This document shows positions 24,532 through 28,981 of a stretch of 37,609 bases of DNA, one piece after another. Each line of letters begins with the position of its first letter. Position 1 is the first letter of the stretch. The notes under the pieces are model-generated. The model did no database searches. It saw nothing but the letters and a program-made list of their open reading frames with translations, and had not been told where the DNA came from. Both the position numbers and the translations under genes were made by a program. The stretch spans positions 1 to 37,609 of the forward strand of contig JAEUUJ010000029.1 of assembly GCA_016786495.1 (NCBI GenBank), read 5' to 3'. Source of the DNA: Cyclobacteriaceae bacterium (GTDB lineage Bacteria; Bacteroidota; Bacteroidia; Cytophagales; Cyclobacteriaceae).

Positions 24532-24897
24532 GTGGAAGAGAATAAGAGCAATGGCAGAGATGAGATATATTCTGCGAAAGTAAAAGCTGGTAAGAGAACC
24601 TACTTTTTTGACGTCAAGTCAACCCGCTCAAACGATTATTACCTGACGATTACCGAAAGTAAAAAGCGCTTCAAGGAGGATGGGTTCACCTACGAGAAGC
24701 ATAAAATATTCCTGTATAAAGAAGATTTCAACAAGTTCGTGGAAGCCCTCAACAACACCGTTAACCACGTGAAAAACGAACTTATGCCGGATGTGGATTT
24801 CACTCAGTTCGACCAGATGCGTGAAGAGGCGCATGCCGAAGAAACCGGGGCGACTGTTGCCAAAGCCGGTTCCGACTCGGAGCTGAAGTGGGATTAA
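24532..24897 (+). CDS. Pur-alpha-like (DUF3276) nucleic-acid-binding protein, GTG start
   Basis: A 121-residue protein. The core RDEIYSAKVKAGKRTYFFDV, then KSTRSNDYYLTITESKKRF, then YEKHKIFLYKEDFNKFVEAL is the DUF3276/PUR fold, seen throughout Bacteroidota; a PC4/Whirly-like single-stranded nucleic-acid-binding fold is known for the PUR domain. The C-terminal tail (about 85-121) is acidic. The start must be GTG at 24532: no in-frame ATG precedes the conserved core, and the two nearby ATGs (24551 and 24560) are out of frame. AGAAGGA at 24523-24529 is a purine-rich sequence, but only 2 bases separate it from the GTG. The likely role is RNA or single-stranded DNA binding in the cytoplasm. Confidence 0.88.
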   Translation: MEENKSNGRDEIYSAKVKAGKRTYFFDVKSTRSNDYYLTITESKKRFKEDGFTYEKHKIFLYKEDFNKFVEALNNTVNHVKNELMPDVDFTQFDQMREEAHAEETGATVAKAGSDSELKWD

Positions 24898-24998: not shown

Positions 24999-26096
24999 AT
25001 GGGAGTAAAATGCGGTATTGTGGGTTTGCCCAATGTAGGTAAGTCGACATTGTTTTCAGCGCTTACCAACATTCAGAATGTGGCCGCGAACTATGAATTC
25101 GCTACGATCGACCCCAATGTCGGCATCATTAACGTTCCCGATAAACGTCTGGAGGTGCTGACGGAGATCGTGAACCCGCAAAACATCGTTCCCACCACCA
25201 TCGAGTTTGTAGACATTGCCGGTCTCGTAAAAGGAGCCAGCAAAAATGACGGCCGGGGTAACGGCTTCCTCTCTAACATCCGCGAAGTAGATGCTATCGT
25301 ACATGTGGTACGGTGCTTTGATGACATCAATATTGTCCGCTCTGCCGGGCCGGTAGATCCCGTTTCCGACAAGGAGATTATCGAGATGGAGCTTCAATTG
25401 AAAGATCTGGAGTCGGTTGATAAGAAGGTAGCCCGCATCGAGCGAGCAGCCAAGGCAGGCGATGCCAAAGCGAAAGCCGAACTCGAGGTTCTGAGGCAAT
25501 ATAAAGCGCATCTGGAGCAGGGTAAAAATGCCCGCAGCCTGGATGTTTCCGAAGAGGAAAAGAAAGCGGTATCCGACCTGTTCCTGCTCACCATGAAGCC
25601 CATGATGTACGTGGCCAATGTTGACGAGAAATTCCTGCATGAGGATAATCACCACGTACAGGCCTTGCGCAAAGTGGTGGATGCAGAAGGAGCGAAGATG
25701 ATCAAAATCTGCGCAGCCCTGGAGGCCCAGATTGCCGAGATCACCGACAAGGATGAGAAGAAGATGTTCCTCGAGGAATACAAGCTTGACGAGTCAGGTC
25801 TTGCGAAAATGATTCAGGCCAGCTACAGCCTGCTCAACCTGATTACCTACTTCACGGCCGGGGTGAAAGAGGTACGCGCCTGGACCATTGTAAGGGGATG
25901 GAAAGCCCCTCAGGCAGCGGGAGTTATCCATACCGACTTCGAGAAAGGGTTTATCAAAGCCGAGGTTATCAAGATGGCTGATTTTGAAAAATACCGCTCA
26001 GAAGCTGCATGCCGGGAGGCCGGAAAACTTGCGATTGAGGGCAAGGAATACGTGGTAACTGACGGGGATATCATGCATTTCCGCTTCAACGTATAG
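24999..26096 (+). CDS. ychF: Redox-regulated Obg-like ATPase YchF
   Basis: A 365-residue protein of standard length. The G1 loop GLPNVGKST is at residues 9-17; DPNVGIINVPD and FVDIAGLVKGASKNDGRGNG (G3/switch II) follow. An inserted helical coiled-coil domain spans about 125-200, and the C-terminal TGS domain (about 280-365) contains TYFTAGVKEVRAWTIVRG, HTDFEKGFIKAEV and a final HFRFNV. YchF/OLA1 proteins hydrolyse ATP in preference to GTP because of a changed G4 motif; here the corresponding segment is YVANVDE in place of NKxD. YchF binds ribosomes and influences the oxidative stress response and leaderless-mRNA translation in E. coli. The gene is monocistronic by its promoter and the terminator before it. 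Confidence 0.97.
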   Translation: MGVKCGIVGLPNVGKSTLFSALTNIQNVAANYEFATIDPNVGIINVPDKRLEVLTEIVNPQNIVPTTIEFVDIAGLVKGASKNDGRGNGFLSNIREVDAIVHVVRCFDDINIVRSAGPVDPVSDKEIIEMELQLKDLESVDKKVARIERAAKAGDAKAKAELEVLRQYKAHLEQGKNARSLDVSEEEKKAVSDLFLLTMKPMMYVANVDEKFLHEDNHHVQALRKVVDAEGAKMIKICAALEAQIAEITDKDEKKMFLEEYKLDESGLAKMIQASYSLLNLITYFTAGVKEVRAWTIVRGWKAPQAAGVIHTDFEKGFIKAEVIKMADFEKYRSEAACREAGKLAIEGKEYVVTDGDIMHFRFNV

Positions 26097-26180
26097 GTTT
26101 TCGCCCCGTTTCCCGCCCGAAATCCTGCTTCCTGCAATTATTCCTTACATGGACTTGAGTTCATTTCTTTATTTTTATTA

Positions 26181-26212
26181 GTTTTATAAACTGCTCATAA
26201 TCAGTATAAAAC
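26181..26212 (+). repeat. Single CRISPR-repeat-like 32-nt hairpin upstream of cas6
   Basis: Perfect 8-bp outer arms GTTTTATA (26181-26188) and TATAAAAC (26205-26212) enclose 16 bases in which CTG and CAG can pair again, leaving AA as a bulge and an 8-nt loop. The element starts with GTTTTA and ends with AAAAC, like many CRISPR repeats, and is repeat-sized, but it occurs once and no spacer pattern is present. It lies 48 bases before the Cas6-like start codon. Alternatives are an operator or a transcription attenuator. Confidence 0.6.
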
Positions 26213-26260
26213 AGGGGTTTACCAGAATCGATTTTTTAACACCCCATTATTTTTTTAGAA

Positions 26261-27064
26261 GTGAGAACCAGGATCATTTTTTCGTTGAAGAATCGCGGGG
26301 CGTATGTGCCATTTCATCACCAGTTTTTGCTGGCACAGTTCATTAAGGGAGTCCTGATTTTCGGCCCTGACAAGGACTACAAAGATTTTACGCAGTTCAT
26401 CTTTTCGGGCCTGAAGGGCCAGACCAAGATCAGCCGTAAAGGCCTGCATTTTTATTCATCCAAGGTGACGCTGGTTTTCTCATGCACCGACAAAGCATTT
26501 CTCGACTACTTTCTCGGACGCCTTTTTGAACAAAAGGATATTGTGATTGGAAGCCTCCATTTAACCCCGGAAGCATTCGAAAAAGAGGAGGCGGTTCAGA
26601 TCAATGAGGAGGCTAAATTCCTTTGCATTTCACCCATCGTACCGATCCAGGCAGCAAGCTTCAATGACGACCAGAGCAAAAAGTTTATGTCGCCTGATAC
26701 CGATGAGTTCTCGGATCTTTTGTACGATGCAACGCTCGCGCGGATGGAAGCAACCGGAAAGTACACCGCTGAGCAACTGGCTTCGTTTTACAAGTTTCAA
26801 ATCGTACCCGATGCCGACTACCTGAACCGGATTCAAGCCACACATAAAAAGTTTGCCCGCATCTACCCGGTGTACGATAACGATGTGAAGTTTGAAGTCC
26901 GCGGCTACACCTTCCCGTTCACGCTATATGCCGCTCCCGAAGTACAGCGATTTGTGTATGAATATGGCCTCGGCTATTTCTGTCACAAAGGTTTCGGAAT
27001 GCTGGATGTGGCCGGCAACGACTCCATCCGAAAAGCCGATCAGCGCGAAGTAGTGTATGCTTAA
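26261..27064 (+). CDS. cas6: Orphan Cas6-like CRISPR endoribonuclease homologue
   Basis: A 267-residue protein with the Cas6 layout: N-terminal RTRIIFSLKNRGAYVPFHHQ, leading into FLLAQFIKG; a core LCISPIV; and a C-terminal glycine-rich loop GLGYFCHKGFGM (Gly236, 238, 244, 246), the Cas6/RAMP G-h-G-x5-G-h-G signature. Cas6 cuts CRISPR precursor RNA at a stem-loop. His19/His20 are candidate catalytic residues by position, though Cas6 active sites vary. No other cas gene and no array lies within the window, so it is a solitary homologue, and processing an unlinked CRISPR array or another structured RNA are both possible. The start is GTG at 26261; no in-frame ATG occurs before the conserved core. 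The gene is 164 bases beyond ychF and overlaps the convergent DUF5103 gene by 4 bases. Confidence 0.83.
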   Translation: MRTRIIFSLKNRGAYVPFHHQFLLAQFIKGVLIFGPDKDYKDFTQFIFSGLKGQTKISRKGLHFYSSKVTLVFSCTDKAFLDYFLGRLFEQKDIVIGSLHLTPEAFEKEEAVQINEEAKFLCISPIVPIQAASFNDDQSKKFMSPDTDEFSDLLYDATLARMEATGKYTAEQLASFYKFQIVPDADYLNRIQATHKKFARIYPVYDNDVKFEVRGYTFPFTLYAAPEVQRFVYEYGLGYFCHKGFGMLDVAGNDSIRKADQREVVYA

Positions 27065-28344
27065 CGTGGATTCTGCGCAAGCTCAATATAACCAATCAGC
27101 AAGTCAGCCTGTGGTTGAAACGACCGGTAATACACCAGGATCTCATACTCATTTTCTGTTTCAAAGTGATTCCCCTCGAAGTAATCGTATGGAACGGTTG
27201 CCGATTTAACCACGTATTGATAATCGTAATATCCCTGCCGCAACAAAACTGTTGCGGTATACTGTTGTTTGATGGCATCGTAGGTCATCAGATAGTCGGG
27301 TAGAGTACTCCAATTGGTGAACGCTCCGTTCAAATAGACAGCACCGTCAACGGGCTGTGACGACCGCAGCGCGAAATGCACGTACGCATAGTTCGCTGAC
27401 ACCGGATTCCGGAAGTCGTAATTATCGCTCTGGTAATTACCGTTCAAATCGTTAAAGATTGCATACGGTTGTCCTTTCCGGGAAACATCTTCCTGGATGA
27501 AAACATGAAACGGCTTTTGCGTTTTATCCACACTTTGAACATTCCGACCCGGGTAGTTGAGCGACCGGAGATCAAACCACCGGAACTCGTTTCCGCCTTT
27601 GAGCATTTTAGCAGGGTCAAACACGCGATACTCGAGTTCCCGGATGTTGTCGCGTACAAAGGCAGGCTTCAAGCCCTCGGCCAGATTATCCCAGCGTTGG
27701 TTTTGGCGGATGGTCACGTTTACGTTCTCCATGGGGTTAATCAAGTCGAGGTTTTTATAGTTGATGGTAAAATTGAGTTGCTGGTTAACATTGGTTGCGG
27801 CTCCGGCTCCCAATAAATTGCCATCGCGGGAGAATGAAACACGCGAATCGTACACCATAAAACGTTTGGTAAGGATAAGATCGGTTTTGTCGGAACCCCG
27901 GTAAACCGCCAGTACGTAGTTTCCGGGTAGCTTTACAGCCGGCAACCGGAATTTGTAATGAACGTAAGGAATCTGGGTATCGAGCGAGAACTCGAAGTTG
28001 AGCAGTGGAAATTCGTTGAACTGGGGCATGAAATCGAGGTCGGAGAGCGTTGATTTAGTCCAGTCCTGGTTACAATGGATCACGCGGGCGTAGTAGCTGT
28101 CGCGCGATTCCTGGAGGTCGTCAAATTCGAGCACCAGATTCCAGTTGCCGAGTTTGGTCACGGTGGGGAGGAGTTGGACATCGGAGCTGGTGCCCTCGGG
28201 ATACACGCGAACCGTCTTAATTTGCGGTTCGTATGAAGCATCCGAGAGCGTTAAGATCTTTGGAGTACCCGAATTGGTGGTAGACGTTTGGGTGAGCGGA
28301 ACACACGAAACAAGCAACAGGAATACGACAGACCATTTCTTCAT
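27061..28344 (-). CDS. DUF5103 lipoprotein (T9SS plug family)
   Basis: Starting at ATG 28344 gives 427 residues; a TTG 6 bases upstream is an inferior start. The N-terminus MKKWSVVFLLLVSC ends in a lipobox (LVSC, Cys14), so this should be a lipoprotein. The rest is all-beta: an N-terminal domain (IKTVRVYPEG, LVLEFDDLQESRDSYYARVI) and later WFDLRSLNYPGRNV, AYVHFALRS and YLNGAFTNWS. These match DUF5103, whose N-terminal domain is called T9SS_plug_1st. In Flavobacterium johnsoniae a protein named Plug closes the SprA translocon; whether this homologue does so is inference. The window also carries a T9SS cargo gene. The distance to the divergent sigma gene is 61 bases. Confidence 0.86.
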   Translation of the reverse strand: MKKWSVVFLLLVSCVPLTQTSTTNSGTPKILTLSDASYEPQIKTVRVYPEGTSSDVQLLPTVTKLGNWNLVLEFDDLQESRDSYYARVIHCNQDWTKSTLSDLDFMPQFNEFPLLNFEFSLDTQIPYVHYKFRLPAVKLPGNYVLAVYRGSDKTDLILTKRFMVYDSRVSFSRDGNLLGAGAATNVNQQLNFTINYKNLDLINPMENVNVTIRQNQRWDNLAEGLKPAFVRDNIRELEYRVFDPAKMLKGGNEFRWFDLRSLNYPGRNVQSVDKTQKPFHVFIQEDVSRKGQPYAIFNDLNGNYQSDNYDFRNPVSANYAYVHFALRSSQPVDGAVYLNGAFTNWSTLPDYLMTYDAIKQQYTATVLLRQGYYDYQYVVKSATVPYDYFEGNHFETENEYEILVYYRSFQPQADLLIGYIELAQNPR

Positions 28345-28347
28345 GCT

Positions 28348-28379
28348 CAAAGCTAAAATTTTAAACTACGCGTTTCCAA
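28348..28379 (-). promoter_or_regulatory. Promoter of the DUF5103 gene, -7 box abutting the ATG
   Basis: On the minus strand, TTG (28379-28377), 21 bases, then TAGCTTTG (28355-28348) matches the Bacteroidota promoter. The -7 box ends 3 bases before the ATG at 28344, so the transcript may begin at the A of ATG (leaderless). Confidence 0.6.
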
Positions 28380-28405: not shown

Positions 28406-28981
28406 ATGCATAACGATCGAATTCACCCGGGAATGCTCAAAGAAGAGGAGCTGATTGAAGCCTGCCGAAAAGGCGACAGGGCCGCTCAAAAGGCTTTATA
28501 CGATCGTTTTGCAAAAAAATTGATGGTGGTATGTCTGCGCTATTCGAAATCCACACCGGAGGCGGAAGACATTTTACAAGAGGGCTTCGTGAAGGTGTTT
28601 CAGGGTTTAGGGGGTTTTAGGCAAGATTCTAAGCTGGAAACATGGATGACAAGGATTATGGTGAATACGGCCCTCAACCACCATCGCAAAAAGCTCTATC
28701 TCTACCCGATGGTAGATGTTGAAGACATTGACCTGCCCGAAACCGAAGTGAGCCTTTCGGGGCTGCATTTTACCCAACTACTCGAAATGATTCAGGAACT
28801 GCCGCAGGGTTGCCAGGTAGTATTCAACATGTTTGCCATCGAAGGATATGGGCACAAAGAAATTGCTGAGATGCTGGGAATCTCAGAAGGAACATCAAAG
28901 TCGCAGTATGCGCGCGCGCGTGCCTTGCTGCAAGAGCGATTATTAAAGGGATCAACTTATTATCAGCGTTATGGAAAATAG
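28406..28981 (+). CDS. ECF RNA polymerase sigma factor
   Basis: A 191-residue protein. Region 2 (about 25-95) contains EACRKGDRAAQKALYDRFAK, EAEDILQEGFVKVFQGLGGF and METW/MTRIMVNTALNHHRK-type DNA contacts. Region 4 (about 125-175) has LPQGCQVVFNMFAIEGYGHK, EIAEMLGISEGTSKSQYARA, the helix-turn-helix that reads the -35. The linker (LYPMVDVEDIDLPETEVSLS) is short, as in sigma-70 ECF proteins of Bacteroidota. Such factors are usually held by a membrane anti-sigma and released by an envelope signal. The following gene overlaps the end of this one by 11 bases (28971-28981), so the pair is tightly co-expressed. Targets are not visible in the window. Confidence 0.94.
   Translation: MHNDRIHPGMLKEEELIEACRKGDRAAQKALYDRFAKKLMVVCLRYSKSTPEAEDILQEGFVKVFQGLGGFRQDSKLETWMTRIMVNTALNHHRKKLYLYPMVDVEDIDLPETEVSLSGLHFTQLLEMIQELPQGCQVVFNMFAIEGYGHKEIAEMLGISEGTSKSQYARARALLQERLLKGSTYYQRYGK

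Follow-up and report, generated by a model that had tools for sequence, protein, structure and literature searches.

A 37,609-nucleotide stretch of DNA from a Cyclobacteriaceae bacterium (GenBank assembly GCA_016786495.1, contig JAEUUJ010000029.1; hereafter the window) encodes a solitary protein of the Cas6 family, next to ychF and away from any detected clustered regularly interspaced short palindromic repeats (CRISPR) locus. The evidence assembled here makes it probable that this gene is an old, domesticated cas6 that became separated from CRISPR in the order Cytophagales and its relatives, and that it has been retained for a job on cellular RNA. To the same probable reading belong the views that the gene is inherited mainly vertically and is normally present in one copy per genome, apart from the Cas6 paralogs of CRISPR loci.

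The window protein is a member of the Cas6 family by descent. Its residues 112-250 match PF01881 (Cas_Cas6_C) at 77.2 bits, with a cut-off of 23, and the PADLOC Cas6b profile matches residues 1-250 at 6.1e-29, while its TIGR01877 score of 57.2 bits falls 1.45 bits below the curated cut-off of 58.65. For alignment and structure modelling we used a hand-picked set of 59 solitary proteins (A3), comprising 30 from the family, 20 from the order and 9 from the class samples; one class locus, L187, was omitted as the open reading frame (ORF) caller gave no intact frame. PF01881 was found in all 59 members, as was TIGR01877 at E<=0.01. An AlphaFold2 model built with these relatives reached a mean predicted local distance difference test (pLDDT) score of 93.4 and was used instead of a mediocre model made from family sequences alone (pLDDT 74). 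In a Foldseek comparison, this model has the fold of solved Cas6 proteins of the repeat-associated mysterious protein (RAMP) superfamily; the RAMP fold of Cas6 is double ferredoxin-like. The closest PDB structures, each Cas6 or Cas6-related, were 5yi6 (E-value 3.3e-17), 3ufc (4.2e-17), 3i4h (1.1e-13) and 3qjj. An initial annotation, made from the sequence without database searches, had recognized a Cas6-like protein with a glycine-rich loop and had proposed modelling its structure against known Cas6, and both the profile matches and the model bear out that family assignment.

The solitary proteins differ from Cas6 proteins of CRISPR loci where the catalytic residues would be expected. In PfuCas6 these are Tyr31, His46 and Lys52, according to an excerpt of PMC3652601. 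The 59 solitary proteins were aligned with 16 Cas6-like proteins of CRISPR loci in this order and class. Ten of the 16 are classical and 6 are of a shorter type; the set was drawn from the family, other order families (G219, G273, G291) and a single class-level genome (G562). The tyrosine column holds Tyr in 10 of the 16 CRISPR proteins and in none of the 59 solitary ones; in the six shorter CRISPR proteins it is filled by His. Likewise, the histidine column holds His in 10 of the 16 and a gap in all 59. The initial annotation's description of the protein as an endoribonuclease is not supported, as neither catalytic position holds its residue in any of the chosen members, and we do not file the protein as a CRISPR-associated endoribonuclease. 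Eight other residues are invariant among the solitary proteins (H20, S49, K52, S66, Y187, K196, R200 and Y216), and the column of H20 is Tyr in 16/16 CRISPR proteins. The glycine-rich loop reported initially is retained, with G236, G244 and G246 present in 59/59 solitary proteins and G238 in 58/59, and all four present in every CRISPR protein. When the tree is rooted manually on a protein of the short type, all 59 solitary proteins fall in one clade (FastTree support 0.83). The solitary branch has the Cas6 fold, as modelled for the window protein, and lacks Tyr and His at the two canonical catalytic positions.

The gene is widespread in the family and common in the order. Searches of 196 family, 291 order and 247 class genomes found a strong ortholog in 169/196 family genomes and 75/84 genera, with a best E-value of 2e-66 or lower in each. 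In the order sample 146/291 genomes matched, or 144 from 13/22 families once two weak matches (G240, G291) were removed. The 19/247 matching class genomes comprised 6 family members, 10 orthologs outside the order and 3 weak matches; the 10 orthologs, from three families, scored 155-222 bits, as compared with 25-42 bits for other Cas6-like matches. A search of GTDB contigs yielded 318 confirmed relatives, and the best 80 of these 318, which were kept for locus work, were mostly from Cyclobacteriaceae, Flammeovirgaceae and Cytophagales, including the genera Ohtaekwangia, Chryseolinea and Fulvivirga. Only one plasmid record carries the gene, a Bernardetia replicon of 602 kb in which purQ and rimM are close by, and none of the phage records searched carries a solitary cas6.

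Genomic context and sequence constraint are likewise those of a resident gene, as the initial annotation had suggested. Among 130 family loci, which represent 101 distinct cas6 genes, ychF lies upstream in 101/101 and the convergent gene for a type IX secretion system (T9SS) plug protein follows in 96/101, sometimes past an insertion; almost every family locus retains the ychF-cas6-plug order, which persists in genomes lacking the CRISPR markers that we searched for, a check that the initial annotation had proposed. Outside the family, ychF is directly upstream of cas6 in 8/20 order loci and 4/10 class loci. The dN/dS ratio (nonsynonymous to synonymous substitution rates) between the window and L053 is 0.0092 for cas6, 0.0117 for ychF and 0.026 for the plug gene, and between the window and L054 it is 0.0095 for cas6 and 0.0061 for ychF, all of these values being rough given large synonymous distances (0.87-2.2). 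When identity to the window is compared between the two genes, cas6 exceeds ychF in 26 of the 30 nearest distinct loci and in 52/101 overall. Solitary cas6 is under very strong purifying selection, like ychF.

Neither the window nor the source genome offers a CRISPR system for this protein, within the reach of our searches. The solitary position between ychF and the plug gene, noted initially, is confirmed: a Pfam scan of 7 window proteins gave no Cas protein besides the solitary Cas6, and a simple scan of the window gave no CRISPR array. Cas1, RAMP and Cas3_HD gave no match anywhere in the source genome (4.0 Mb, 90 contigs, completeness 100), other Cas families not having been searched for. 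Across 110 loci around solitary cas6 genes the array scan returned a single three-copy 18-base repeat (L095:936), its positive controls being 7 loci where an earlier, similar scan had already detected arrays. At 20 other loci, from most of which ychF has moved away, no cas gene was found among 86 neighbours (PADLOC, E<=1e-10), and none of the 25 most frequent among their 132 Pfam families is a cas family; one neighbour matches CARF_AAA_HTH regulator models and one matches IetA. In one class-level family (L188, L189, L190, L191), a conserved protein of about 640 amino acids is encoded right after solitary cas6.

In the family, Cas1 was detected in 75/196 genomes, RAMPs in 15/196 and Cas3_HD in 30/196, and 97/169 carriers of solitary cas6 have none of the three, with 130/169 having neither class 1 marker; in the order, 65/144 carriers lack cas1. 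These searches did not look for Cas9, Cas10, Cas12 or Cas13, and their sensitivity is limited, since in 14 control genomes the Cas1 model detects 9, RAMP 4 and Cas3_HD 7, many Cas3_HD matches being weak. A second Cas6 match occurs in at least 17 genomes, 14 of them with class 1 markers, a lower bound because our own Cas6 profile misses some Cas6 types. By that profile, 7 of 11 type I comparison loci encode their own Cas6-like protein, 5 of these with an FLH motif, and no Cas6 is found in type III loci L205, L207, L208 and L209 or in type I loci L213-L216. That the profile misses some types follows from a Pfam scan of the same four type III loci, which finds two Cas6b_C proteins among 49 ORFs. 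The same 49 ORFs include four proteins with Card1 CARF matches and four with PIF1/RecD-like helicase families, so that L205, L207, L208 and L209 encode four Card1-type CARF nucleases or helicase-annotated relatives. Family type I loci L199, L200, L202 and L203 have two Cas6-like genes apiece, a longer one (open frames of 280-290 codons, FLH motif) and a shorter one (227-240 codons, HKW motif).

The beginning of the gene is also conserved. Among the 101 distinct family genes the start codon is TTG in 61 and GTG in 39, one being unreadable, while ychF starts with ATG in 88/88 readable loci. Codon 2 of cas6 is AGA in 68/70 loci and AGG in 2/70, an entropy of 0.19 bits, as compared with an average of 2.1 bits over 17 six-codon positions past codon 15. 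A fixed non-ATG start is not peculiar to cas6, since the DUF3276 gene of the window and its homologs in L053-L132 have a GTG start in 59/59 readable loci. ATG starts of cas6 were seen in five of 20 order-level loci and in all four class-level loci inspected. Codon 7 (Phe; window 26279-26281) is TTT in 68/70 loci, and Phe codon 18 is TTT in 41 and TTC in 29.

Upstream of cas6, part of the family shares a leader block, TTAGTTTTATAA, followed by a short hairpin, which in relatives of the window sits 58-75 bases ahead of the cas6 start and whose arms in the window are at 26190-26195 and 26210-26215. The 80 GTDB loci gave 71 usable ychF-cas6 spacers, three of them (L125, L128, L129) without a recognisable motif, and 66 leaders were prepared, 24 in a first group (A4) and 31 in a second (A5). 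Near-identical leaders (L053, L054, L059, L061, L063, L073, L108 and L118) were removed by hand, as were L080, L081 and L084 for their divergent stems, a removal that favours the stem. Covariation was counted on A4 only; a similar hairpin in A5 was judged by eye. Across the 24 A4 leaders, 81.9% of cells pair, a share that sliding the 3' arm lowers to 57.6% or less, and both-side changes occur in 4/6 pairs and 8 cells, a result reached by 1/500 shuffles; further pair types are not above chance (237/500 shuffles). A covariance model of the leader (R1) scores the gene's own leader at 67.8 bits in the source genome and the next match at 16.3, with 150 of 1293 first-look candidates scored, and with filters off the second-best match in the window reaches 7.6 bits. 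We rejected the idea that the hairpin belongs to an array-like family of repeats or targets, the gene's own leader being the sole strong match found in the genome. At gathering scores Rfam matched nothing in the window, and consensus scans of 25950-27200 for sigma-70 promoters and terminators found nothing. The leader hairpin is a weak, lineage-specific candidate for the target RNA of the solitary Cas6.

Coordinates of the solitary cas6 gene, its leader and its neighbours in the window
Feature	Position	Strand	Basis
Solitary Cas6-family gene (267 amino acids, GTG start)	26261..27064	+	ORF, profile matches, model, fold search
GTG start and AGA codon 2 of cas6	26261..26266	+	
Leader block TTAGTTTTATAA then short hairpin, upstream of cas6	26171..26224	+	leader alignment, covariance model
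ychF, conserved neighbour upstream of cas6	24999..26096	+	Pfam scan, synteny counts
T9SS plug protein gene, conserved convergent neighbour; its listed ORF and the end of cas6 have 4 bases in common	27061..28350	-	
DUF3276 gene, frequently kept upstream of ychF	24532..24897	+	
Extracytoplasmic function (ECF) sigma factor gene past the plug gene, kept in many family loci	28406..28981	+	

Several results weigh against a domesticated role, and those that speak most strongly against a role wholly apart from CRISPR are associations between the gene and CRISPR markers, all uncorrected for phylogeny. In the order, cas1 is present in 79/144 carriers of solitary cas6 vs 33/147 non-carriers (p=1e-8), and in the family any marker is present in 72/169 carriers vs 5/27 non-carriers (p=0.019), with class 1 markers confined to carriers (39/169 vs 0/27, p=0.003). 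These associations also bear on the suggestion of the initial annotation that the protein serves an array elsewhere in the genome: the marker-free source genome lends this suggestion no support, while the confinement of class 1 markers to carriers lends it some weight across the family. They would be expected if the protein were a trans-acting processor of CRISPR RNA (crRNA), a chromosomal Cas6 on standby for transient type III (or I) CRISPR systems, a role that we nevertheless consider improbable. The majority of family carriers have none of the three markers, cas1 occurs in 33 order genomes that lack a full-length solitary copy, most of the type I comparison loci bring a Cas6-like protein of their own and the four type III loci hold two Cas6b_C proteins, and a dN/dS near 0.01 is unlike that of a sporadic immune gene. 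Given these many marker-free carriers, the missing Tyr and His and the housekeeping-level constraint, crRNA maturation is unlikely to be the reason for which the gene has been retained. That the gene is a chance remnant of a lost CRISPR locus has nothing in its favour beyond the family name, and its presence in about half of the order genomes, conserved synteny and dN/dS of 0.009 make this explanation wholly implausible.

The leader bears on a narrower form of the domesticated Cas6 reading, namely that the protein is catalytically dead and acts purely as an RNA-binding regulator, including translational autoregulation through the leader hairpin. The absence of the canonical Tyr and His would suit such a regulator, as would the close fold match to 3ufc (PfuCas6nc), which an excerpt of PMC3652601 calls non-catalytic, the conserved non-ATG start and constrained codon 2, the both-side changes in the hairpin and the finding of a single strong leader match in the genome. 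However, a missing His is not proof of lost activity, because SsoCas6, in the same excerpted source, lacks the canonical His and still cuts RNA, and the DUF3276 neighbour shows that a fixed non-ATG start has company in the window itself. The hairpin, too, is open to objections. The stem of the window is imperfect, with a C-A mismatch at pair 26194-26211 and an outermost pair that is also non-standard; shifting the 3' arm one column along yields just as many both-side-change cells (8) and a covariation score of 0.150, only modestly below the 0.173 of the proposed stem, so that only the paired share stands out; the count excludes three leaders whose stems diverge; and more distant family members and other families have no leader hairpin recognisable by eye. 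We therefore regard the purely regulatory form as possible but somewhat unlikely. For the leader itself there is a competing explanation of nearly even probability, which is that the hairpin is the transcription terminator of ychF and is unrelated to the Cas6-family protein. Its position 3' of ychF and the T runs that follow it in several homologous leaders are what a terminator would show, but the consensus scan finds no terminator-like site in the window, where the hairpin is followed by GGTTTACC instead of a T run, and the best-conserved leader bases lie 5' of the hairpin, as with a promoter, even though the sigma-70 scan found none.

Comparison with known systems helps to place the solitary protein. 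It shares with CRISPR Cas6/Cas6b (PF01881, TIGR01877) the fold, the glycine-rich loop and the length, with TM-scores (template modelling scores) on the query of 0.67 for PfuCas6 (3i4h) and 0.72 for M. mazei Cas6 (5yi6), and differs from them in being a solitary protein without an adjoining array or cas operon, without the Tyr and His, and encoded by a core gene beside ychF. The highest TM-scores on the query are those of PfuCas6nc (3ufc, 0.75), also the best profile match among PDB sequences, and PH0350 (3qjj, 0.73), which are archaeal proteins from CRISPR-bearing species. The solitary Cas6, by contrast, belongs to the core genes of a bacterial order, and it is likened to these two by fold rather than by lost residues. 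With SsoCas6, as excerpted from PMC3652601, it shares the absence of the canonical His and the presence of conserved basic residues; SsoCas6, however, processes crRNA. Solo Cas1 and solo Cas4, described in excerpts of PMC9939771 and PMC5704561, are likewise members of Cas families found outside CRISPR loci, but they are other proteins, and the present case concerns a Cas6 retained across an order. Titles and abstract openings of the open-access literature, a body of text that leaves most subscription papers uncovered, revealed no conserved solitary Cas6 in Bacteroidota. The Cas6 family is known; the core branch with an altered active site, often without CRISPR, is undescribed to the extent that these searches reach.

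Returning to the domesticated Cas6 that we favour, several features of the protein and its locus suggest how it might work. RNA binding is predicted because the Cas6 fold, the glycine-rich loop and the invariant basic residues point there, and the protein may still use the RNA-binding face of Cas6 and the glycine-rich loop to bind a host RNA, either structured or sequence-specific. It might then guard the bound RNA, or cut it with a rebuilt active site. YchF is a ribosome-associated ATPase, and the link to ychF suggests a role in translation or at the mRNA level. The weak start codon, joined in part of the family by the leader hairpin, suggests control of dosage and possibly autoregulation. 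A more specific proposal, which we advance tentatively and hold to be rather less likely than its converse, is that throughout Cytophagales and in some related families the gene encodes a core ribonuclease or RNA chaperone, rebuilt around the invariant His20-Ser49-Lys52/Lys196-Arg200, which matures or guards a cellular RNA and acts together with YchF in translation.

Such a gene carries the name 'CRISPR-associated endoribonuclease Cas6' in at least one public record, from Bernardetia. An immunity label may thus conceal a conserved core gene of a bacterial order and may lead to CRISPR systems being overcounted. Should the protein act on a cellular RNA, the solitary Cas6 of Cytophagales would offer a clear example of a CRISPR RNA processor co-opted for a housekeeping role.
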